Assembly: GCA_020692245.1 (NCBI GenBank)
Contig: JAIMKT010000021.1
Coordinates: 1-53,115 of the forward strand
DNA: 53,115 bases
Source: Microcoleus sp. GA_180221_E-2-1-MAG-45_12
GTDB taxonomy: Bacteria; Cyanobacteriota; Cyanobacteriia; Cyanobacteriales; JAAUUE01
Direction of reading: 5' to 3'
Shown: piece after piece, positions 7,658 through 45,435 of the stretch
Position numbering within the stretch: position 1 is the first letter of the stretch
How the letters are laid out: the number at the start of each line of letters is the position of its first letter
Program-made: the position numbers and the translations under genes
The notes under the pieces: model-generated
The model's input: the letters and a program-made list of their open reading frames with translations, nothing else
What the model was told of the DNA's origin: nothing
Database searches by the model: none

Positions 7658-10600
7658 ATGGTCTCGCAAATAAATAGTCCGTACACAAATAAACAGGAAG
7701 CTAAACAGGAAGCAAATTCCACCTTCCCCGCTACAGCCCCCGCCGCAAATCCAGTATTTTTTCGTACCTACAGCCGCCGGGATGCTCAGGGAAAAAGAGA
7801 AAGTTGGGAACAGGTGGGCGATCGTACCCTCAAGGGGTTAATTAACCTAGGAAAACTCTCCCTAGCAGAAATTGATCTCATCAAAAAAATGCAAGCCGGG
7901 CTAAAAACTCTCACCTCTGGGCGTTGGCTCTGGGTCGGTGGCACGCACTGGGTAGAGCAGCCCCAAAACTTCTCTGGAGCCTATAACTGTACTTCAACGA
8001 ATATTGATGACTGGCGATCGTTCGGCTTGCTGATGGATCTAGCGATGATGGGTTCTGGTACTGGAGCTGTGTTGGAACCGAAGTATATTAATCAACTCCC
8101 GCCGATCCGCAATCAACTCCAAGTAGAAATCGTGGGGGCGATCGGCACAACTCCCAAACCCGAAAGAAGGGAAGAAACTGAGGTTATTTTTCAGGGAAAT
8201 CAAGTAACAATTCACGTCGGCGACAGTCGCCAAGGTTGGGTCAAATCCTATCAAGCTCTTTTGGAACTTTCTACAGATCCAAGATTTACAGATCCAGTCC
8301 AAGTCCGGGTAGATATTAATGATGTCCGCCCCGCCGGGGAATCTCTTCAAGGCTTTGGGGGTGTGGCTAACCCGGTGAAGTTACCAGAACTTTATAACAA
8401 CTGTGCCAACATTCTTAATAAAGCTCTAGGCAGACAATTAAACTCTGTGGAATGCTGTTTATTAATTGATCAAGGCGCAGTCACGATCGTTGCTGGCAAT
8501 ATTCGACGCTGCTTACCTGCTGGAGCATTGGTACATACGCAACAGGGTTTAGTTCCTATTGAGAAAATTAGGGTTGGCGATCGTGTCTTAACGAGTAAAG
8601 GATTTTATCCTGTTACAAATTTCTTTGATCAGGGTATGCAATCTCTTTGTCGGATTAAAACTCAAGATAGTTATTTTGAATGTACTCCCGATCATAAAGT
8701 TGCTGTCCTAGAAGATGTCTATGGCAAATATCGAATGGTCAAGGCGAAAGACCTTCAAGAAGATGATCGATTGATATTTGTACCCCAAGCAATTCCCGGT
8801 AGTGCAACTGAGTTGCCAGAATTTAAAGGCGATTTGGCTCCTCAATCTAAACGAATCACTATTCCTGCACTAACATCTGATATCGCTTACTTTATCGGCT
8901 ATTTACATGGCGATGGCTCAGTTGCCAGTGATGGTTGGCGAGTAAGATTTCGGATATCTGAAGACCAGCAACAAATTACCGATAAACTCATCAATGTTGG
9001 TGCTTTGTTTGGTTTAGAAACCTATACATTGAGAACACCGGAGCAATGCCAAACTAAGGCTTTTGAACTGCAATTCAACTCTAGTGCTTTAAATCAGTAT
9101 CTATCACAATTTAAAAAAGCCTTCACTTCGATTAATATCCCCGACTGCATCCTATTGGCAACCACTAATATCCGTGAAGCATATTTAGCTGGATTAGCTG
9201 ATGCTGATGGTTGTTTTAGTCAAGGTGTGCTAGTTGCCTCAGTTCATCCAGACTTTTTACGGCAGGTTCAATCTATCTACGCTTCCTTAGGAATTACTAC
9301 TCGTTTATGCCATTCTACCCGTAAGCGCACAGGTAAATGGGAAGGTGAACTAGTCACAGTCGGTGAATCAGCTTTTGAGAAATCATCTGAATTATTCGCT
9401 AATTATTCGTTGCGCTTTGCTGACAGTCAAAGGAATCGTCCTAAGTCATTTAAGGATCATGGATTTCCTAAAGCAATGGTCAGACCGCTTGTAAATACCT
9501 ACAAATATCATTGGAGTGGTGCGCAAAAACAAATGATTGCTCCTACTGTAAAAAAACACATTTCTGAATCTACGGATTTAATTCCTATCAAAGTGGAATC
9601 AGTAGAAATGGATGTAAGAATTGCTCATACCTATGACATTGAGGTTGCGTCTATTCATGAATTTGTTTGTGAAGGTATCCTCGTTTCAAATAGCGCCGGA
9701 ATGCGGCAATTCAGTTCAGAGGATGAGTTAGGAGCTACGGCTAAGGATAATTTGTGGAGTCAGGATGAGCAGGGGAACTGGAGAATTGATCCAGAAAAAG
9801 ATGCTCTGAGAATGGCGAACCATACCCGTGTTTTTCATAGTAAACCTACGGAAGAAGAGTGCATTAATGCAGTGCGGAAGCAGTTTTATTCTGGGGAAGG
9901 AGCAATTCAATGGGCAGGGGAAGCGATTGCCCGTGCCAATATTGACCTAGTTAAAACTCCTGAACTAAAACGTGAATTCGTAGCTGCCTATGCTCAAGGA
10001 AAAGCAGAGAATTGGTTCCAAGAAAATCATCCAAATATCCCTAAGGAAGAACTAGATCATCGGTTAGCTCGTTTGGGTTTGAACCCCTGTGGGGAAATAA
10101 TTGGTTCAACTTTTCACTGTAATTTATCAGAGATTCACCTTAACCAAATTGATCCCAAAAACTTTAAGGAACAGGAAGAGGCTTTCCGGGCTGGAGCTTT
10201 GTCTGTGGCGGTGCTGTTGCATCATCAATTCCAAGAACCCCGCTATCAAACTAGTCGGCAACTAGACCCGATCGTGGGCGTATCCTTCACAGGGTTGTTT
10301 GACTTCTTTGTCCATGCCTTTGGAGCCGAGTGGTTGCAGTGGTGGGAAGCGGGCAGACCGGATACCATCAAGGGTTTGGAGTTTAAGCAACAAGAGCAGG
10401 AATATCTAAGTCGGTGGCGAGAAATTGTTCATCAACAGGTCTGGGAATATTGCGATCGCCATGGCTTGAAACGTCCAAATAGATGTACTACTGTGCAGCC
10501 AGCCGGAACCAAATCATTACTTACTGGTTCTTCTCCCGGTTGGCATCCCCCCAAAGCCCAGCGCTTTATCCGCCGGATTACCTTTAGGAAAAATGATGCG

Positions 10601-11176
10601 GTGGCTCTAGCTTGTATGGACTATGGGTATACCGTGATTCCTTCCCAAACTGACAAAGATGAAAAGGGGAATCTGCTCAATGATCCCTTTGATCCCCGTT
10701 GTACAGAATGGCTGGTGGAAATTCCCGTGGCAGTATCTTGGGCAGATTTACCGGGAGCCGACTCGATCGAGATCAGCAAATTTTCCGCCCTTGCCCAGAT
10801 GGATTTCTATATGCAGGTGCAAAAATTCTATACTCGCCATAACACCAGTGCCACGATCGAACTCCGGGAACCTGAGATTGAAGCTTTGGGTAAGCGTATT
10901 TACGAAGCCATTCGGGATGATGAAGGTTATATTTCTGCCGCTTTGTTGGCAAGATTTGACGACCACCAGACTTTCCCTCGCCTGCCCTTTGAACCCATTG
11001 ATAAGGAAACCTACGATGAGTTGATGCAGGGAGTGGTCGATCGACGGCGAACGGAGGATTTTTATGCTGCGCTCATGACCCACGACCTCGGTGCTCCAGT
11101 TAATGACATGGGAGAAGTGGGCCCGGCAGGCTGTGATTCTGATAAATGTTTGCTGCCAGAAAAACAACCAAGCTAG
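7658..11176 (+). CDS. nrdJ: Adenosylcobalamin-dependent (class II) ribonucleotide reductase with intein
   Basis: 1172 residues as translated. After removal of the 394-residue intein (residues 285-678) the mature enzyme is 778 residues, normal for the monomeric class II reductase. It makes deoxyribonucleotides using a thiyl radical generated from coenzyme B12, without oxygen. Visible motifs: YNCTSTNIDDW and MMGSGTGAVLE near the active site, LNPCGEIIGS with the radical cysteine, PAGTKSLLTGSSPG in the phosphate-binding loop, and a C-terminal Cys pair in CDSDKC for re-reduction. It stands alone; no B12 riboswitch was recognised in the 259 bp upstream. A weak NrdR-box-like palindrome at 7546-7561 is discussed under findings. 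Confidence 0.96.
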   Translation: MVSQINSPYTNKQEAKQEANSTFPATAPAANPVFFRTYSRRDAQGKRESWEQVGDRTLKGLINLGKLSLAEIDLIKKMQAGLKTLTSGRWLWVGGTHWVEQPQNFSGAYNCTSTNIDDWRSFGLLMDLAMMGSGTGAVLEPKYINQLPPIRNQLQVEIVGAIGTTPKPERREETEVIFQGNQVTIHVGDSRQGWVKSYQALLELSTDPRFTDPVQVRVDINDVRPAGESLQGFGGVANPVKLPELYNNCANILNKALGRQLNSVECCLLIDQGAVTIVAGNIRRCLPAGALVHTQQGLVPIEKIRVGDRVLTSKGFYPVTNFFDQGMQSLCRIKTQDSYFECTPDHKVAVLEDVYGKYRMVKAKDLQEDDRLIFVPQAIPGSATELPEFKGDLAPQSKRITIPALTSDIAYFIGYLHGDGSVASDGWRVRFRISEDQQQITDKLINVGALFGLETYTLRTPEQCQTKAFELQFNSSALNQYLSQFKKAFTSINIPDCILLATTNIREAYLAGLADADGCFSQGVLVASVHPDFLRQVQSIYASLGITTRLCHSTRKRTGKWEGELVTVGESAFEKSSELFANYSLRFADSQRNRPKSFKDHGFPKAMVRPLVNTYKYHWSGAQKQMIAPTVKKHISESTDLIPIKVESVEMDVRIAHTYDIEVASIHEFVCEGILVSNSAGMRQFSSEDELGATAKDNLWSQDEQGNWRIDPEKDALRMANHTRVFHSKPTEEECINAVRKQFYSGEGAIQWAGEAIARANIDLVKTPELKREFVAAYAQGKAENWFQENHPNIPKEELDHRLARLGLNPCGEIIGSTFHCNLSEIHLNQIDPKNFKEQEEAFRAGALSVAVLLHHQFQEPRYQTSRQLDPIVGVSFTGLFDFFVHAFGAEWLQWWEAGRPDTIKGLEFKQQEQEYLSRWREIVHQQVWEYCDRHGLKRPNRCTTVQPAGTKSLLTGSSPGWHPPKAQRFIRRITFRKNDAVALACMDYGYTVIPSQTDKDEKGNLLNDPFDPRCTEWLVEIPVAVSWADLPGADSIEISKFSALAQMDFYMQVQKFYTRHNTSATIELREPEIEALGKRIYEAIRDDEGYISAALLARFDDHQTFPRLPFEPIDKETYDELMQGVVDRRRTEDFYAALMTHDLGAPVNDMGEVGPAGCDSDKCLLPEKQPS
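8510..9691 (+). mobile_element. Intein with LAGLIDADG homing endonuclease, inside nrdJ
   Basis: In-frame insertion of 394 residues splitting the conserved extein run GNIRR | SAGMRQF. It begins with Cys1 (CLPAGALVHTQQGLVPIE, splicing block A), carries the block B TxxH motif in CTPDHKV, and ends with block F/G residues TYDIEVASIHEF and ILVSN before Ser+1. The two dodecapeptide motifs of a LAGLIDADG endonuclease are present: FIGYLHGDGSV (about residues 411-421) and LAGLADADGCF (about 508-518). The acidic catalytic residues appear intact, so homing may still work. The penultimate residue is Ser, not the usual His. The insertion point lies next to the active-site region, as for many RNR inteins. 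Confidence 0.95.
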
Positions 11177-18883: not shown

Positions 18884-20692
18884 TCATGGTCCCAGAAAAA
18901 TCGAGACATATTTTCCTTGCTGACTGCCAATAGGTAAGGTGTTAAATTTATCAGAGGTAAATTTTGTTTTAAGGACTTCTTTCAAGTAGTTTGCTCCATC
19001 AATATTTATTGCTGTATGACGAATCTCATTTGCAGGTGTTGTAATACTTGTATTTGGATAACCATATGTTGTAAAAAACTCATCATCTTTAGGAGGAATA
19101 ATCGGGATATTACTCTGTACAAATTTAGAGCTAAACATATTTTTGATATCTCTTGCTTTCGCCTCTAAATCAGGTCTATTAGAGTGATAGTAAATACGAA
19201 TCTCATATTCTTTTAGCACCCTACTCCTCATCTCAGCAAGTAAATCTTCAGGACTTCCCCAAGAATATTTTATAGTAATATCTGTATAAATAAGTTTCAA
19301 GATTTGCTGCTTCTGTTCATCACTTGTAGCTTTAGTATAGTCTTGAATTTTTTCTTTTGTAAGTAAATTAGTGTAGATGTCATAAACTGAGTTACAGGAT
19401 TGACATAATTCTTCAGCGTAGATAAGATACTGTTTTGCTTTCACTAAGTCCCCATCTAATAAAGCTTTAAATCCTTCCTTTTCATTCTCAAGTGCCGTTG
19501 CCAGCCGAGTCATTTTTACTTGTTCTGTCGATATTGGAGTAGGTGTTGTTTCAACTCCCTGATTATTGCCCGGAGAATAAAACTGATTTATTGAAAATAA
19601 TATGACAATAATAATTCCTCCAGCAGAAGCTAGAGACAAGAGAATTCTCTTATTTAATAAGGGAGTAGGGATTGGATTGTTTATGGGAGTACGGATTGAA
19701 TCTGATCTGGGAGTAGAGATGGGATTAGGAGATATTTCTGTGTTTTGATTAGATGGAAAGGTGATGGCTAGAGGTAATTCACGATCGTAGGGATTAGTGC
19801 CAATAGAGGGATGTTGTCTATATTCAGTGTCTTCCTGTACCTTTGCACGCACGTATTCAAATAGCTCCCCGATCGTTACAAAACCATTTTGATTGAGGTC
19901 TGCTTCCCCTTGCATTCCTCTTAGTAGGTAATGAGTAAAAACACCATGTCCTCCGCCCCATCTGGCATCTTCAAAGGACACCTCGGCGGCTTCGGCTGAA
20001 GTAAGTAAGGCAATGCCGCCCCTTGTTGTGCTTACTTCTTTCAAATAGCGATTTACCAAGGCAGTACTGTTCGTTGTGCCTCTACGACCTATCCCGCCGC
20101 CAATGGCTGCACTATGGCAAGTATCAGCCAAAATAACGACCCGTTCAGATAATAAATTTTCTCGCAGAGATAGGTCAATTTCCCGCATCGGTAGAGCAGT
20201 TCCGGCAATATCATTGGGGTCGGTATCATGAGTTAGTAAATAAACATTTCCGGGTCTATCAAAATCAGGAGATCCATGACAGGCAAAGTAGATAATCACT
20301 AAATCTTCTCGACCCGGTTTTTTAAGAAAACTCCGCAGAGCCTTTGTAACATTCGCTGTTGTGGCTTCATGGTTGATGAGCTTAACAATATGGTCAGGTT
20401 TGAAGTTTCCTCCTATGGGGCTAAGCATGAGATTATAAAATGCTTCTGCATCCCGATCGGCATACTTCAAATTCAAGCTCTCATTCTTATACTTTGACAC
20501 TCCAATCATAATTGCCCAGCGATCGACATAGGTATCATAGGAATCTGGAAGTTCGACACTGAATCCTCGATTTTGAGCGTGATCAGATGGGTTTATATTT
20601 TCCTCTTCTGTCATTTCGATGTCCTCAACTAAAGCGAATTTATCACTAATGGCTTTCAAAATCTGAGTATATCTAGAGAGCATGAAAGCCAT
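18884..20692 (-). CDS. Caspase-family protease (orthocaspase) with C-terminal membrane anchor and extra domain
   Basis: 602 residues. The peptidase C14/p20 domain occupies ~55-310 and opens with DRWAIMIGVSKYKNESLNLK. The catalytic His is in FACHGSPDF (~137) and the Cys in LADTCHSAAIGGG (~189). DLNQNGFVTIGEL (~267) resembles an EF-hand loop and could bind calcium, which activates many metacaspases. A Pro/Ser/Thr linker leads to one transmembrane helix (~345-365). The C-terminal ~230 residues hold a helical part and an alpha/beta stretch starting EIRIYYHSNRPDLEAKARDI, reminiscent of SPOR/LytR_C-like folds (weak). It starts 30 bp after the second caspase gene. Expected to cleave after Arg/Lys. 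Role unknown. Confidence 0.88.
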   Translation of the reverse strand: MAFMLSRYTQILKAISDKFALVEDIEMTEEENINPSDHAQNRGFSVELPDSYDTYVDRWAIMIGVSKYKNESLNLKYADRDAEAFYNLMLSPIGGNFKPDHIVKLINHEATTANVTKALRSFLKKPGREDLVIIYFACHGSPDFDRPGNVYLLTHDTDPNDIAGTALPMREIDLSLRENLLSERVVILADTCHSAAIGGGIGRRGTTNSTALVNRYLKEVSTTRGGIALLTSAEAAEVSFEDARWGGGHGVFTHYLLRGMQGEADLNQNGFVTIGELFEYVRAKVQEDTEYRQHPSIGTNPYDRELPLAITFPSNQNTEISPNPISTPRSDSIRTPINNPIPTPLLNKRILLSLASAGGIIIVILFSINQFYSPGNNQGVETTPTPISTEQVKMTRLATALENEKEGFKALLDGDLVKAKQYLIYAEELCQSCNSVYDIYTNLLTKEKIQDYTKATSDEQKQQILKLIYTDITIKYSWGSPEDLLAEMRSRVLKEYEIRIYYHSNRPDLEAKARDIKNMFSSKFVQSNIPIIPPKDDEFFTTYGYPNTSITTPANEIRHTAINIDGANYLKEVLKTKFTSDKFNTLPIGSQQGKYVSIFLGP

Positions 20693-20722
20693 ATCGTTAC
20701 TTAAATATCCTTGCCATAATCC

Positions 20723-22798
20723 CTAATTAGATGCTTTAACAATCGTCATTATTAACTGCTTGGTTGTCCATTCAGTACTAGGAGATGCGGCAACTGTTAA
20801 ACTGCGATTTATAGGTTGTTCATCATCGATCGCCCCCAATAGTGCCGCCAAGGGATTACCCCCACCCCTTCCACCCCGCCCAGATGGTAAAGGTTCATCT
20901 AGAGAAGGTAGTTCTAAAACTCGGTAGTTGGCAGCATCTAAAGTCCCAAAAACTTTGACAGTATTTTCTCCAGAATCATCTTTTTCATCTAGGATGGGCT
21001 TTAACGGCAGAATTTTCTCTCGCCCTGCTTCTAAGGTGATAAAGAACTCATTTTTATTTGATGGCAGAATCTGTTCGATCGCCCACTCCGCATCTAAATT
21101 TAAAACAGCAATATTAAGGGTCTGGATAGAATCATTGCGAATAGATAGAAAAACATACTCGCCAACTTTTACCGTTGGTTTATTAGGGTCTACAAATTTG
21201 GTTAATTTCTCTTTTTTAGGAATCGGATCGCCCGTATCATAGGTATCTGATGTCCCTAGCCATGCAACTGCCAGCTTGCCAGAAAGTGGCGAATCAGTAT
21301 CTACATTGTCAATCTCTAAAGTAGCTTTATACTTGGCAAGATGGACAAGCCGTTTGATAACTTTGGCTGGAGCCTGAGGATCAGTAATTTTCGCTGGGGG
21401 ACTAATATTTTTGAGGAGTCGATCGCCACTATCGCAAATTTCATACTCACCCTTATCATTAATACTGACTATGTAGTCAATTCCTGCACCATCTGCGGAT
21501 ACCTCTACCCAGCCATTACCCGGCAAAGCCTTGGCGATCGCGAGTAACGCCGGATCATTTGGAGGAATTAAGGATACTGTTCTTACTAAATTGATAGAGG
21601 CGGAAATTTGTACAGCTCGATCGCCTTGTTCCACTTGCCGAGTTTTGCCTGCAATCGGTTGGAGTCTACACAGTGATTGAGAGCCGCCACGCTGTATGAT
21701 AGTCGCGATCGCAATCCGATCCTCTTTTTTGGTCAAATCAGTGGTTCCAAGGGGATAAATAGCAAATTCAGCTCCCTTAGACACCCCATTTGCCTGCCCG
21801 ATCGCCAGCCATGCTTGAGGCTCACCCTTCTCATTGGATTCCACCTTCATCACGTCAACAGCAAAGACTATCTCGCCATAATCAGCTCCAAAAATCTTGC
21901 GATTGCCCTCACCCAAAAGTACGGGAGTTTGAGAGGGAAATTGGCTGTGAATTTTGGCATTAAGGCGATCGAACAGATCCTTATAGGTTTGACCAGAAAA
22001 AGGTTGTTTCAATGTATCCAGAATCCAATAGGTCAAGGCTCCGTTTTTTTCTTTGGTTGCCCGATTGAAGGGAAATTCAAAGGCAAATTCATTCTGACGA
22101 CAGGCTGCCAAAAGTACATAATCGTTGGATTCTGGGACTCCTCCTGCCTTGAGTCCACGAGATTCCCCTTCTGTTAAGGAATGCCAGAGCTTCACCAAAA
22201 CCTCTGGTTCGGCAACAGGTTGAAAGCTAGCCTGAAGAGGTTTATTATCCTCCACATTCATGCCCCTGATTTCAGCCTCGCCCCTTGTCTCCCCACCAGC
22301 ATGACAACAATCTAGAACTAGAGTGATCACCAGTTTTTTGGCGACTAACTCCTGCAAAAGTTGGGCAAGCTCTAGATCACGGAGATACTGCCCTTCTGAA
22401 GTCCCAATATCAGTGGGAACTAACCCTTCATCAATTTCATTAGTGCCTTTAATATCAGGAAATACCGTCTTTGCTCGTCCTCCATGTCCAGAGTAGTGAA
22501 TGTAAACCAAGGAATTCTCTGGAGCCATTTCACCCAACTTCCTGAAGGCAGCAATCATGTTGGTACGAGTAGGCAGTTTATTAGGTGATTCTAGAGGGAT
22601 TTTCTCATTCTCTGGGCTAGGAGAAGCGGTTAATTTCAAAATCCGGTTTTCTGGAACTTTTGGAAAATCCTTGAGAAAGGCTTCTACATGATTAATATCC
22701 CGCACGCACCCACTCAAATTTTTATAGTAGCTACCATCAGGAAGGCTATTTGGCATGTAGCAATCAACACCTATGAGTAATGCATATAAATCTGCCAT
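20723..22798 (-). CDS. Caspase-family protease (orthocaspase) with C-terminal beta domain
   Basis: 691 residues. The C14 caspase domain (~1-305) starts with YALLIGVDCYMPNSLPDG; the catalytic His is in IHYSGHGGRA (~104) and the Cys in LVLDCCHAGG (~164). A middle part (~310-460) is beta-rich. The C-terminal part resembles DUF4384-like domains (YVFLSIRNDSIQTLNIAVLN, then AEWAIEQILPSNKNEFFITL), often found on bacterial caspases, with a Gly-rich loop near residue 645. No signal or membrane segment. It follows the M15 peptidase gene by 127 bp and precedes the membrane caspase by 30 bp. Substrate unknown; orthocaspases are linked to stress and cell death in cyanobacteria. Confidence 0.88.
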   Translation of the reverse strand: MADLYALLIGVDCYMPNSLPDGSYYKNLSGCVRDINHVEAFLKDFPKVPENRILKLTASPSPENEKIPLESPNKLPTRTNMIAAFRKLGEMAPENSLVYIHYSGHGGRAKTVFPDIKGTNEIDEGLVPTDIGTSEGQYLRDLELAQLLQELVAKKLVITLVLDCCHAGGETRGEAEIRGMNVEDNKPLQASFQPVAEPEVLVKLWHSLTEGESRGLKAGGVPESNDYVLLAACRQNEFAFEFPFNRATKEKNGALTYWILDTLKQPFSGQTYKDLFDRLNAKIHSQFPSQTPVLLGEGNRKIFGADYGEIVFAVDVMKVESNEKGEPQAWLAIGQANGVSKGAEFAIYPLGTTDLTKKEDRIAIATIIQRGGSQSLCRLQPIAGKTRQVEQGDRAVQISASINLVRTVSLIPPNDPALLAIAKALPGNGWVEVSADGAGIDYIVSINDKGEYEICDSGDRLLKNISPPAKITDPQAPAKVIKRLVHLAKYKATLEIDNVDTDSPLSGKLAVAWLGTSDTYDTGDPIPKKEKLTKFVDPNKPTVKVGEYVFLSIRNDSIQTLNIAVLNLDAEWAIEQILPSNKNEFFITLEAGREKILPLKPILDEKDDSGENTVKVFGTLDAANYRVLELPSLDEPLPSGRGGRGGGNPLAALLGAIDDEQPINRSLTVAASPSTEWTTKQLIMTIVKASN

Positions 22799-42147: not shown

Positions 42148-42328
42148 TCTCATTCAAAATCTTATTAGGGTGAGTCTAAATTTCTACTTTCCACTGATCT
42201 CCACTAGGGCTTCACTTGACTGCAAAAATTCTAGTACCTATCGAACTACGAACTTCGGCATAACGGTGAATTGGCATAACCTTGGAACTCAACGGCGGCT
42301 CGGCAGGATTGTCTGATGGAGTGAGTTG

Positions 42329-43138
42329 TTAGGTATCCTCAGCACGAGGACTAGCAGAGGATCCCGCAAGGATTCCACCGTCGATGTTCAACTCTGTGCC
42401 TGTTATGTATGTAGCTTCGTCTGAAGCAAGCAGTACCGCTAACGCTGCCACCTCTTCCGGCAGCCCAAATCGACGTAAAGGAGTGTCGCTCACAAACTCC
42501 GCCATCCTCGCTTCACGGTCTGGGCCATTGCCTAGCATCGGTTCCCACATTGGGGTAAGAATTGCTGCTGGATGGATCGAGTTGCAGCGAATCTGAAGAC
42601 CCTGTTCTGCACAGTACAAGGCAACTGACTTGGTATGATTCCTAATAGCAGCCTTAGACGATGCGTAGGCAGCTGCCCCTGGAATCCCTACCAACCCCGA
42701 TCGAGAGGAGATGTTGATTATTGATCCAGCTTTTTGTGGGCGCATTGCCTTAATTGCGTACTTGCACCCAAGGAATACCCCATCGAGGTTTGTTTCATGG
42801 ACAGACCGCCATGCACTCAGGCTTGCATTTTCCGGGTCGTGGATTAAGTCTCCATCTTCAAAGCCAGTAATCCCCGCATTATTTACGACTATATCTAGTC
42901 TTCTGTACTCGCCAAGAAGGTAGCTTGTAGCTGAAGCCCAGTCCTGTTCTTTGCGAACATCTAGGTGGATGTACTCTGCCGAAGCTCCAAGCTGGGCGGC
43001 GGTTTCTGCTCCGAGCTTGTCGTTGATGTCGGAAAGGCAAACACGTGCGCCCTCATCTAGAAAACTGCGAGCGATCGCCTCTCCAATACCCCTTGCTGCT
43101 CCTGTAATAAGGGCAACTTTACCTTCTAACCTTTTCAT
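42329..43138 (-). CDS. SDR-family oxidoreductase (glucose/steroid dehydrogenase-like), possible integron cassette gene
   Basis: 269 residues. Cofactor motif [14 protein letters not shown], active site Ser (IINISSRSG) with Tyr and Lys in [14 protein letters not shown], and the C-terminal [10 protein letters not shown] are classical SDR. Asp in LSDINDK suggests NAD preference. GAGG lies 7 nt before the ATG. The stop codon lies inside ACCTAAC (minus strand, 42334-42328), a match to the integron core RYYYAAC. It is preceded by a strong promoter and a GTTAGGC core (43160-43227). Codon use is more GC-rich than the neighbouring cassette gene. Substrate cannot be told. Confidence 0.88.
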
Positions 43139-43159: not shown

Positions 43160-43227
43160 GCCTAACTATGTATCAGACGGAAAATTTTTCTAGTTATTTA
43201 GTATAGGGCAGATAAGCTGAATGTCAA
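43160..43227 (-). promoter_or_regulatory. Promoter and integron-like core site module A (SDR gene)
   Basis: On the minus strand: TTGACA (43227-43222), a 16-bp spacer, TATACT (43205-43200), then about 33 bp to GTTAGGC (43166-43160), which fits the core GTTRRRY. The SDR ATG follows 21 bp later. The module belongs to a ~83-bp direct repeat (43163-43245) whose other copy is at 45354-45435. Confidence 0.75.
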
Positions 43228-43262
43228 GTTTTGGGCTAATCACCCAGCAATTCTCATTTTAG

Positions 43263-43613
43263 ATCGATCTGACTATTGATCCGCCTCCCGATTTAGCGAT
43301 CGAGGTTGATCACACTAGTAGTTCTATGAATCGGCTGGGAATCTAGGCGGCTTTGGGAGTGATGGAAATATGGCAGTACGATCGTGATAGCTTAGTGATC
43401 TGGAGTTTAGGAGACCAAGGATATCAACCCAGGGGCGTTTCCGTGGTTTTGCCAATGTTTGATGTTGTTGTGCTGAGGTCATTTTTGGAACTTAGTCAAA
43501 CTGTGGGAGAAACAAGTTTAATGCGCCATGTACGCCAATGGGTCAGTTACATAAATATACATGAGGTGCGTTACACTTCATTAACACACCCTACAAGATC
43601 GTCCTCATCGTAA
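43263..43613 (+). pseudogene. Truncated Uma2 (DUF820) endonuclease with in-frame stop
   Basis: Reading from 43263, the frame gives the second half of a Uma2 protein: DPPPDLAIEVD, SSSMNRLGI, a TAG stop (43344-43346) where the family has Tyr, then AALGVMEIWQYDRDSLVIWS and LELSQTVGETSLMRHVRQWV. The N-terminal ~100 residues are absent, and a stop codon precedes the similarity at 43260. The left break falls just beyond repeat A, which suggests that insertion or recombination removed the 5' half. Its tail runs into a small palindrome, GGTGCGTTA with TAACACACC (43565-43590). Non-functional. Confidence 0.8.
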
Positions 43614-43641
43614 TTTTCCAAAGCGTCTAGTATTCTAATCA

Positions 43642-43729
43642 ATCTAACGTTCTGCCTCACTCGCCTCTAGTAACCTATCGAACTCAATGAAAAGGCTCTA
43701 AACGGTCGGGTGCAGGCGGGTTGTTAGAC
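43642..43729 (-). other. attC-like integron recombination site
   Basis: Read on the minus strand, it starts with R'' GTCTAAC, a 3-nt spacer AAC and L'' CCGCCTGCACCCG, and ends with L' CGAGTGAGGCAG, a 3-nt spacer and R' GTTAGAT. R'' and R' pair over six bases. The L boxes pair except for one extra G in L'', the extrahelical base that sets polarity. This is the layout of the Vibrio cholerae repeat (TAAC, 3 nt, CGCCT plus one extra base). The polarity agrees with the minus-strand gene that stops 56 bp upstream. The 88-bp length is within the known range. Confidence 0.75.
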
Positions 43730-43785
43730 CTCATGCCAAAATTTATCTTTGTCAGGTGTTTGAAAGCAAATCCATCCTACCCCTA

Positions 43786-45273
43786 CTATAAGTTATTCAA
43801 ATCTCGACCAACAAATTCAGCCGATGACGCCCAAGCAGACTTAACCTCATTTGTATCAGGATCGCGATACCAAGCTGCTTCCCAAACATTATTCATATTC
43901 CACTCCCAAGACACAATTTTACCCTGTGTAAAATGTGTAAGAGTTGTCGGAAAAATACGAAATCCAACAAAAGCATCACCTGGATGTCTTCTTGTTTCAA
44001 GAATCACCCCTTTGACAGACTCATAAACACTTGTACAGTCTGGATTAGAATAGATCAAAATTCCTGGATAATGAACTATATGAACTTCGTGTGGAATTGA
44101 TTGAAGATTTCTTAAAAGAGACAAACCAATTTCTATTGCTGATGAAACATCATCTGAGTCCACCTCTAGTCCATGAACGCTTTTGTTGCGTATTGACCAG
44201 AAGTAATTAGCTTTTTCTAGTTCAGTAAAACCATACGGTTCCAAAAGCTTTACATCAGCCAAAAATCTACCTTGAGATTTTTCCAGCAATCCCATGCTAG
44301 CAATTAAGTATCGAAGCTCTCTCTCCATCTCAGATGCTAATAGTAGCAAATTACTTTTCGGGGATGACTGCAATAGTTCAATCCGAACTTGAACTTCTTC
44401 TTTCCTAACTTCTTCAATAACTTCTTTACTCGCTCCATATAAATCTAGAAAAGATGAAAATTTAAGTATGTGAAAAGATTGACCATCCGAGACACGACTA
44501 AATTCTTCAACAAGTTCAAAACGAGGATATAGGGGACGACCCTCACTCTGGCTCCACCAATCTGGTTTTTGATCTAAAGAAACAAAAATTACACTCTTTT
44601 TATGGATTCTCCCAAGTTCTAGAATCGTGAACCAAATAATTACATCACCCGCTCCATCATCTGGTTTCCTAGCATCTTTGTATCCTGGTGGAAGCTTATA
44701 CTCACAATCCTTCTCTATTCTTTGTCTTAACTGAGGTTCATCAATTTCGATATCATACACAACCCCTTGAGCAAAAAGAGAACTATACATAACACTGACA
44801 GGATCATTCCAATACCACTGACTAATATCGTCTAATATCTCACTTATGCATTTGTTGTATTCACGAATTTTGTCGTTAAATTTATCTTCGATCTCAATAG
44901 CTTTTTGATATGGCTCTAATCCTTCCAACAATGGATAATTTCCCAAGGATAAAGATGACTTTTTCCTTGAGATCTGCTGGTATAACTCTTTCAATTTTGT
45001 AACTCTGTGCTCAGCAAATTCGCGTGCAGCTTGTCCGGGAACAACTAAACGATTTCCATCAACCAGTAGTCTATATATTGTATTGATTTGCTCTAGACTT
45101 GCTTTACCTGTTGTATAGGGAACTAGCAACGAATTCGTGTCAACTACAATAAAACATTCATCTTTAATGTCCTCTACCAATTTAGGGCGAAAAGCAAATA
45201 TATTCTCAGCTTTAGGATATAAGGAATTGCGATAAAGCATTTCTCTCTTGGTTCTTTTTTCCTGATTCTCCAT
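43786..45273 (-). CDS. PIN-like domain plus HEPN-like (RNxxxH) protein, likely integron cassette gene
   Basis: 495 residues, no signal or membrane segment. The N-terminal PIN-like domain (~35-255) has ECFIVVDTNSLLVPYTTG, GYKDARKPDDGAGDVIIWFT and VIFVSLDQKPDWWSQSEGR, providing the acidic residues of a PIN-family ribonuclease. Residues ~305-400 look like a HEPN helical bundle, with the RNase motif RNKSVH (~362-367) in FWSIRNKSVHG. The last ~90 residues, rich in Trp and beta strands, are unassigned. The gene is AT-rich and poor in GCGATCGC sites, unlike its neighbours. It sits between core site 45351-45357 and the attC-like site. A toxin or abortive-infection effector is inferred. Confidence 0.82.
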   Translation of the reverse strand: MENQEKRTKREMLYRNSLYPKAENIFAFRPKLVEDIKDECFIVVDTNSLLVPYTTGKASLEQINTIYRLLVDGNRLVVPGQAAREFAEHRVTKLKELYQQISRKKSSLSLGNYPLLEGLEPYQKAIEIEDKFNDKIREYNKCISEILDDISQWYWNDPVSVMYSSLFAQGVVYDIEIDEPQLRQRIEKDCEYKLPPGYKDARKPDDGAGDVIIWFTILELGRIHKKSVIFVSLDQKPDWWSQSEGRPLYPRFELVEEFSRVSDGQSFHILKFSSFLDLYGASKEVIEEVRKEEVQVRIELLQSSPKSNLLLLASEMERELRYLIASMGLLEKSQGRFLADVKLLEPYGFTELEKANYFWSIRNKSVHGLEVDSDDVSSAIEIGLSLLRNLQSIPHEVHIVHYPGILIYSNPDCTSVYESVKGVILETRRHPGDAFVGFRIFPTTLTHFTQGKIVSWEWNMNNVWEAAWYRDPDTNEVKSAWASSAEFVGRDLNNL

Positions 45274-45350
45274 AAATATCGAAGTTGAAGCTGTTTTTAT
45301 GGTGATTGGTTACTGTATCAGTTGCAAATCAATACTTATTGATACAGGAG

Positions 45351-45435
45351 GTCTAACTATGTATTAAACGGAAAAATTCTGTCTAATGTCAGTATAGGGC
45401 AGATAGGCTGCATGTCAAGTTTAGGCTAATCACCC
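45351..45435 (-). promoter_or_regulatory. Promoter and integron-like core site module B (PIN-HEPN gene)
   Basis: On the minus strand: TTGACA (45418-45413), a 16-bp spacer, TATACT (45396-45391), then GTTAGAC (45357-45351), a match to the core GTTRRRY. The gene starts 77 bp further on, and the leader holds an inverted repeat TGTATCA/TGATACA (45314-45320 and 45340-45346). The block 45354-45435 is about 80-85% identical by eye to module A. No integrase gene is adjacent. Confidence 0.75.

Follow-up and report, generated by a model that had tools for sequence, protein, structure and literature searches.

Sedentary chromosomal integrons are laid out as an integrase gene (intI), an attachment site attI, a promoter Pc and cassettes with attC sites, with attI normally adjoining intI and divergent from it. 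Two extrahelical bases are usual in attC sites, and the extrahelical bases on one L-box arm set the polarity of the site. Searches for integrons rely on intI and attC. Cyanobacterial integrons and their attC sites are already known (PMC8352920; PMC2426708; PMC9668308), with sedentary chromosomal integrons of cyanobacteria reported by Boucher et al., as far as cited in PMC2426708, and a Cyanobacteria-specific attC model provided by Ghaly et al. (2021; PMC8352920). Clusters of attC sites lacking an integron integrase, termed CALIN, are defined by attC only, and attI sites outside class 1 are poorly described and are not detected by IntegronFinder (IntegronFinder 2.0; PMC9024848). The attI1 site consists of an L box, a 5-nt spacer and an R box GTTRRRY; Delta-attI-type cassettes end in a truncated attI inside mobile integrons, and attG denotes cassettes at non-att genomic sites (PMC12901181).

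Against this background, the locus described here lies in a stretch of 53,115 nt from a cyanobacterial contig, called the window. Positions 43642-43729 very probably represent the attC of a one-gene cassette inserted at a promoter-bearing attI (45351-45392), the locus being an integron without integrase and one of at least ten dispersed modules in this genome. The coordinates are collected in Table 1.

Results

Table 1. Integron-related features in the window (numbering from its first nucleotide)
Feature	Position	Strand	Evidence
attC of the PIN-gene cassette	43642..43729	minus	covariance model R1, finder score, homologues
R'' GTCTAAC of this attC	43729-43723	minus	
L'' of this attC	43719-43704	minus	
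L' of this attC	43665-43652	minus	
R' GTTAGAT of this attC	43648-43642	minus	
Inserted gene cassette, 1709 bp	43648..45356	minus	attI core at one border, attC R' at the other
Cassette gene, 495 aa	43786..45273	minus	Pfam PIN_8, E 5e-32
attI-type site	45351..45392	minus	L box GTTTAAT, spacer ACATA, R box GTTAGAC (45357-45351); model R2, 36.3 bits
Pc-like promoter TTGACA-16-TATACT within the attI module	45391..45418	minus	11/12 consensus matches
Second attI-Pc module, core GTTAGGC	43162..43241	minus	84% identical to family consensus; R2 20.5 bits, weak alone
Promoter TTGACA-16-TATACT of the second module	43227-43200	minus	sequence match
Short-chain dehydrogenase (SDR) gene	42329..43138	minus	Pfam adh_short_C2, E 8e-61
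Possible degenerate attC behind the SDR gene (ACCTAACAACTCA...TTGAGTT...GTTATGC)	42274..42334	minus	R1 14.7 bits, E 0.42
Uma2-type gene remnant flanking the array	43263..43641	plus	87% DNA match to contig C58 of sister genome G001

On the minus strand the attC site reads GTCTAAC-AAC-CCGCCT-G-CACCCG-A-CC ... GG-CGAGTG-AGGCAG-AAC-GTTAGAT, its ends fit RYYYAAC (R'') and GTTRRRY (R'), and the crossover falls between G43648 and T43647. A first-pass annotation had described an attC-like site with GTCTAAC...GTTAGAT ends, symmetrical 3-nt spacers and complementary L boxes with exactly one extra G. Every element that it named is present on this strand, both spacers being AAC, and the L boxes (5' arm CCGCCT-G-CACCCG-A-CC, 3' arm GGCGAGTGAGGCAG) are complementary as described, but the extrahelical bases number two, G43713 and A43706, both on the 5' arm and at the same places in 22 sites of relatives. 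Its designation of the site as VCR-type holds for the extra-base logic and not for the sequence, which belongs to the cyanobacterial attC type, and the polarity agrees, as it had noted, with the gene in front, the PIN gene carrying the attC at its 3' end on the same strand.

The covariance model R1 was trained on other cyanobacteria only, this genome contributing nothing. Its 22 attC sites came from DNA adjoining intI genes and from three more loci in relatives, which DNA similarity had first brought to light, and they were gathered by a structure-specific scan that reached at most 7.9 on 638 kb of shuffled DNA. The covariance-model search proposed by the annotation gave 64.9 bits for the site (E 8e-15 in a search of 147 kb and 2.4e-13 in one of the whole genome), and the pattern finder scored it at 11.6 against the null maximum of 7.9 in the shuffled sequence. 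Pairing is found in 90% of the cells of the 22-site alignment versus 72% in shuffles, and covariation amounts to 0.45 versus 0.13, statistics which lean towards structure since the sites were chosen partly for pairing. Homologues of the site in G033 (82% identity) and G058 (73%), genomes of other genera, show compensatory L-box changes together with the same two extrahelical bases, and near the intI genes of relatives this attC type is oriented as expected of cassettes. The energy of folding would on its own leave room for a chance inverted repeat in intergenic DNA, as it is only mildly low: the plus strand, which is the attC bottom strand, folds better, as anticipated (-11.3 kcal/mol, z -1.9), than the minus strand (-8.6 kcal/mol, z -1.1). 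The identity of the site follows from the covariance model and the homologous sites and not from folding energy, and in view of the E value from a model built without the site, the homologues in other genera with their compensatory changes and identical extrahelical bases, and a placement and orientation that fit both gene and attI, a chance repeat is of practically negligible probability. Judged from its sequence, 43642-43729 (minus) is a genuine attC. An Rfam search of the window gave no matches.

At the other end of the unit, and missed in the first-pass annotation, lies the attI-promoter module (45351-45431), a repeat found again at 43162-43241. At most of 20 intI loci of other genera, the terminal 37 bp of this repeat, ATTAGACAGAA.TTTTCCGTCTAATACATAGTTAGAC, are found again at a distance of 166-280 bp upstream of intI and divergent from it, which is the position of attI. 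The model R2, constructed from 14 intI-adjacent sites of other genera only and from no sequence of this genome, recovers besides the window copy those on contigs C128 (47.5 bits), C73 (42.6 bits), C93 (unit C93a, 34.4 bits) and C54 (29.1 bits), and more weakly C93b, C101 and the second module of the window. The layout of L box, 5-nt spacer and R box GTTRRRY is that of attI1, with the crossover between G45357 and T45356, and 45351-45392 is, as read from the DNA, an attI site, followed in the transcribed sense by a cassette into which TTGACA-16-TATACT, by its match to the consensus, is predicted to read as a promoter. The L box is overlapped by a 22-bp palindrome (TTAGACAGAA..TTCCGTCTAA), which does not covary and therefore counts as sequence symmetry and not as a demonstrated hairpin. 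The reading of the repeats at 45351 and 43162 as further attC sites was rejected, as their L-box pairing fails and they match the attI of intI loci.

The cassette sits exactly between the crossover points of attI and attC. Its protein combines the PIN_8 domain with an R-x4-H (RNKSVH) HEPN-like motif near residue 362, recognized by eye, and is predicted to be probably an RNase. The gene is 86% identical in Nostoc, the similarity extending from a GTTAGAC core to just before the attC, with differing flanks; the Nostoc homologues have no convincing attC and no attI match. The proposal that the segment 45357-43642 is or was a mobile cassette is borne out by its bounds at attI and attC (45356-43648), by the Nostoc gene with other flanks and by the different cassettes that the sister genome has at this attI. 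As cargo, the PIN_8 and HEPN-like protein seems to be of the RNase type and possibly related to defence, and the cassette of unit C93a encodes a RiboL-PSP-HEPN protein; PADLOC found no matches on those of the genome's cassette genes that were tested. The PIN_8 homologues in Nostoc and Desmonostoc (L170, L173, about 2900-2920) start behind a TTTTAAC-TTAGT-GTTAGAC-like motif, clearest in L173, which is an attI- or attG-like double core with no attC downstream.

Modules of attI and promoter are dispersed in the genome in at least ten copies. All ten lie directly ahead of a co-oriented ORF, nine retain TTGACA, and the cargo includes PIN_8, HEPN, CoiA-like, alpha/beta hydrolase and zinc-ribbon proteins. 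Half of the ten units have a clear attC (at least 26 bits with R1) behind the gene, namely C128 (74.5 bits), the window (64.9), C101 (39), C54 (37) and C93a (26); C93b has a weaker one (20 bits) between attI and the next ORF, no recognisable attC was found behind units C73, C14 and C93c, and that of some other units is degenerate. Nearly all attI copies are alike up to GTT and unrelated beyond, a pattern that the joining of foreign cassettes at G/TT would produce. Cores are broken in the attI of C101 and C93c, where they are lost, and in the attC of C93a. Further attC matches of 25-46 bits stand by themselves on C86, C16, C24, C75 and at C93:29210 (L175, L176, L179-L181, L183), with no attI within the 1.5 kb examined. 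Directly upstream of attI, units C128 (L012) and C93a (L015) have in common a stretch of about 300 bp (84% alike over 303 bp) that includes a MITE-like segment with the ends AACGTGAGTTCGA / TCGAACTCACGTT.

Ten dispersed, palindromic copies, 78-93% alike and of variable 5' extent, two of them with a common upstream stretch that includes a MITE-like segment, would also be the appearance of a MITE or small repeat that carries a promoter, has no relation to integrons and lies ahead of genes by chance. Such a repeat would, however, hardly have its 3' part in the place of attI beside the intI genes of other genera, recognized by a model without own sequence, nor attC behind several of the genes, nor a right end that is nearly always GTT with unrelated sequence beyond, and this explanation is very unlikely.

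G001, a sister genome within the genus, retains ABC-F, attI and Uma2 and differs in what lies between the last two: there it has two attC-bearing cassettes (70 and 75 bits), with an HNH-type gene and an apparent toxin-antitoxin pair. Different cassettes at the orthologous attI bear out the expectation of exchangeable cassettes behind this site. G001 lacks unit C93a altogether, with Uma2 and phosphoribosyltransferase-like genes in its place, and the C14 unit is conserved at 94%. On contig C58 of G001 (L029; 7891, 8726, 9306 and 10090) the stretch GTTAGATTGATTAGAATRCTAGACGCTTTGGAAAATTAYGATGAGGACG stands after cassette-like units up to four times, twice directly after GTCTAACTAGAYCGTTAGAT-type double cores, and is also seen behind the window attC, possibly as an integron boundary of yet another kind.

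The Uma2 gene beside the array is intact in G001 (219 aa), and a remnant of it remains in the window, which also holds, at 43564-43601, one copy of a short repeat (GGTGCGTTAC...TAACACACCC) that is dispersed in cyanobacteria and numerous in relatives. The SDR gene begins 22 bp behind the second attI module, and the element behind this gene is suggestive only as a degenerate attC. Elsewhere in the window, an intein-like insertion of about 394 aa (8510-9691), which starts with CLPAG and ends with VSN, lies inside an adenosylcobalamin-dependent ribonucleotide reductase (RTPR) gene (7658-11176), and two adjacent genes at 18884-22798 resemble, by eye, caspase-like (metacaspase-type) proteases.

That the locus is an integron remnant without a visible integrase, as first annotated, agrees with the whole-genome search for intI and attC suggested at the time, which gave 11 attC matches with E values no higher than 1, spread over nine contigs, and no integron integrase (TIGR02249) above the cutoff, the best match having 44 bits versus 265. 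This match, a 189-aa recombinase on contig C80, was discarded as an intI remnant as it fits Xer models better. Beside none of the ten attI copies is there an intI, which the homologous sites in relatives do adjoin, and tblastn detected no intI debris near them; in G001 no intI better than E 1e-50 was found. The assembly is a draft of 132 contigs, 95% complete, from which intI could be missing, so that its absence is likely and not proven.

Within the same order, 30 of 293 genomes encode an integron integrase above the curated cutoff, some relatives having several. Matches to attI number 42, in 21 of 40 genomes including this one; 17 are followed by a same-strand attC within 3 kb downstream and one by an attC on the opposite strand. 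In about half of the 40 genomes there are attI units that lack an intact intI, some of them beside intI debris. Short debris of this kind was looked for at 20 loci only, attI loci that have no intact intI and come from genomes with no strong intI match (threshold for relatives E 1e-50); it was present in the expected place at five of them and at none of the other 15, and more than half of the 20 have a same-strand attC downstream. Matches to attC occur in 42 of 60 genomes.

Discussion

In the most likely course of events, IntI, once resident or brought by another element, would act on a circular cassette and recombine its folded attC bottom strand with the double-stranded attI. The gene, which has no promoter of its own, would thereby come to lie about 35-50 bp downstream of the module promoter and be expressed from it, and the integrase genes would be lost later, a step seen directly in relatives as intI debris. 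We infer an insertion by IntI, expression of the cassettes from the module promoter and, as at least part of the cause of dispersal, the loss of intI from several integrons.

For the ten modules, repeated integron decay, duplication (C128/C93a) and movement of the module were considered as sources. The common MITE-like segment of C128 and C93a indicates that one module was probably copied together with this segment. Against decay as the source of the copies in this genome speaks the lack of intI debris near any of the ten, which is in line with dispersal by movement of the attI module itself, as a cassette-like unit or with another element, rather than by decay of several integrons; the partly common left end (...GCTAACACGC) combined with the GTT right end and the C128/C93a duplication including upstream sequence point the same way. 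The intI remnants at five of 20 attI loci without intact intI and the several intI genes of some relatives, on the other hand, show that integron decay does happen, and dispersal by module movement is a real possibility that still falls short of being probable.

Whether the modules are still active landing pads, served by an integrase in unassembled DNA, on a plasmid or from visiting elements, is a related question. The cassettes at the same attI differ between the sister genomes, the best attC sites are structurally intact and integrases exist in relatives of the same order, yet no intI was found in either genome of the genus and some cores are broken, so continued activity appears rather unlikely. 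Doubtful to a like degree, and put forward tentatively, is the idea of a distributed integron, in which scattered attI-promoter pads would each hold one exchangeable, expressed cassette, with the integrase mostly absent and arriving in trans; if true, cassette capture would depend neither on a resident integrase nor on a single array.

From intI loci it was possible to define an attI motif for cyanobacteria, which reveals modules that persist, several per genome, without a detectable intact integrase and that are predicted to read into acquired genes. If this is general, integrons have shaped cyanobacterial genomes far beyond what the number of integrases suggests, cassettes without integrase remain under an integron promoter, and it becomes directly testable whether such modules are relics or serve a visiting integrase as landing pads. 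No description of dispersed multicopy attI-promoter-cassette units in cyanobacteria was found in the open-access literature searched, and multicopy, dispersed units of attI, promoter and single cassette without integrase appear to be new.

With sedentary chromosomal integrons the locus has in common the attC architecture, the inverted L and R core boxes of attI, a predicted promoter ahead of the cassettes, one co-oriented gene per cassette and cassette turnover at a fixed locus, but it differs from them in the missing integrase and in the distribution over at least ten scattered, mostly single-cassette units instead of one array. As in CALIN, attC-bearing cassettes occur without intI; unlike in CALIN, attI and a predicted promoter are kept, and this locus has one strong attC, below the two-site threshold, the second candidate having 14.7 bits. 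The L box, the 5-nt spacer, the R box GTTRRRY, further upstream repeats and a nearby predicted promoter also have counterparts in attI1 of class 1 integrons, from which the present site is distinguished by the 22-bp palindrome overlapping the L box, by an otherwise unrelated sequence and by many copies per genome. Delta-attI-type cassettes and attG insertions equally place attI-like sites away from intI, whereas here attI-promoter modules precede genes at many places of the chromosome.
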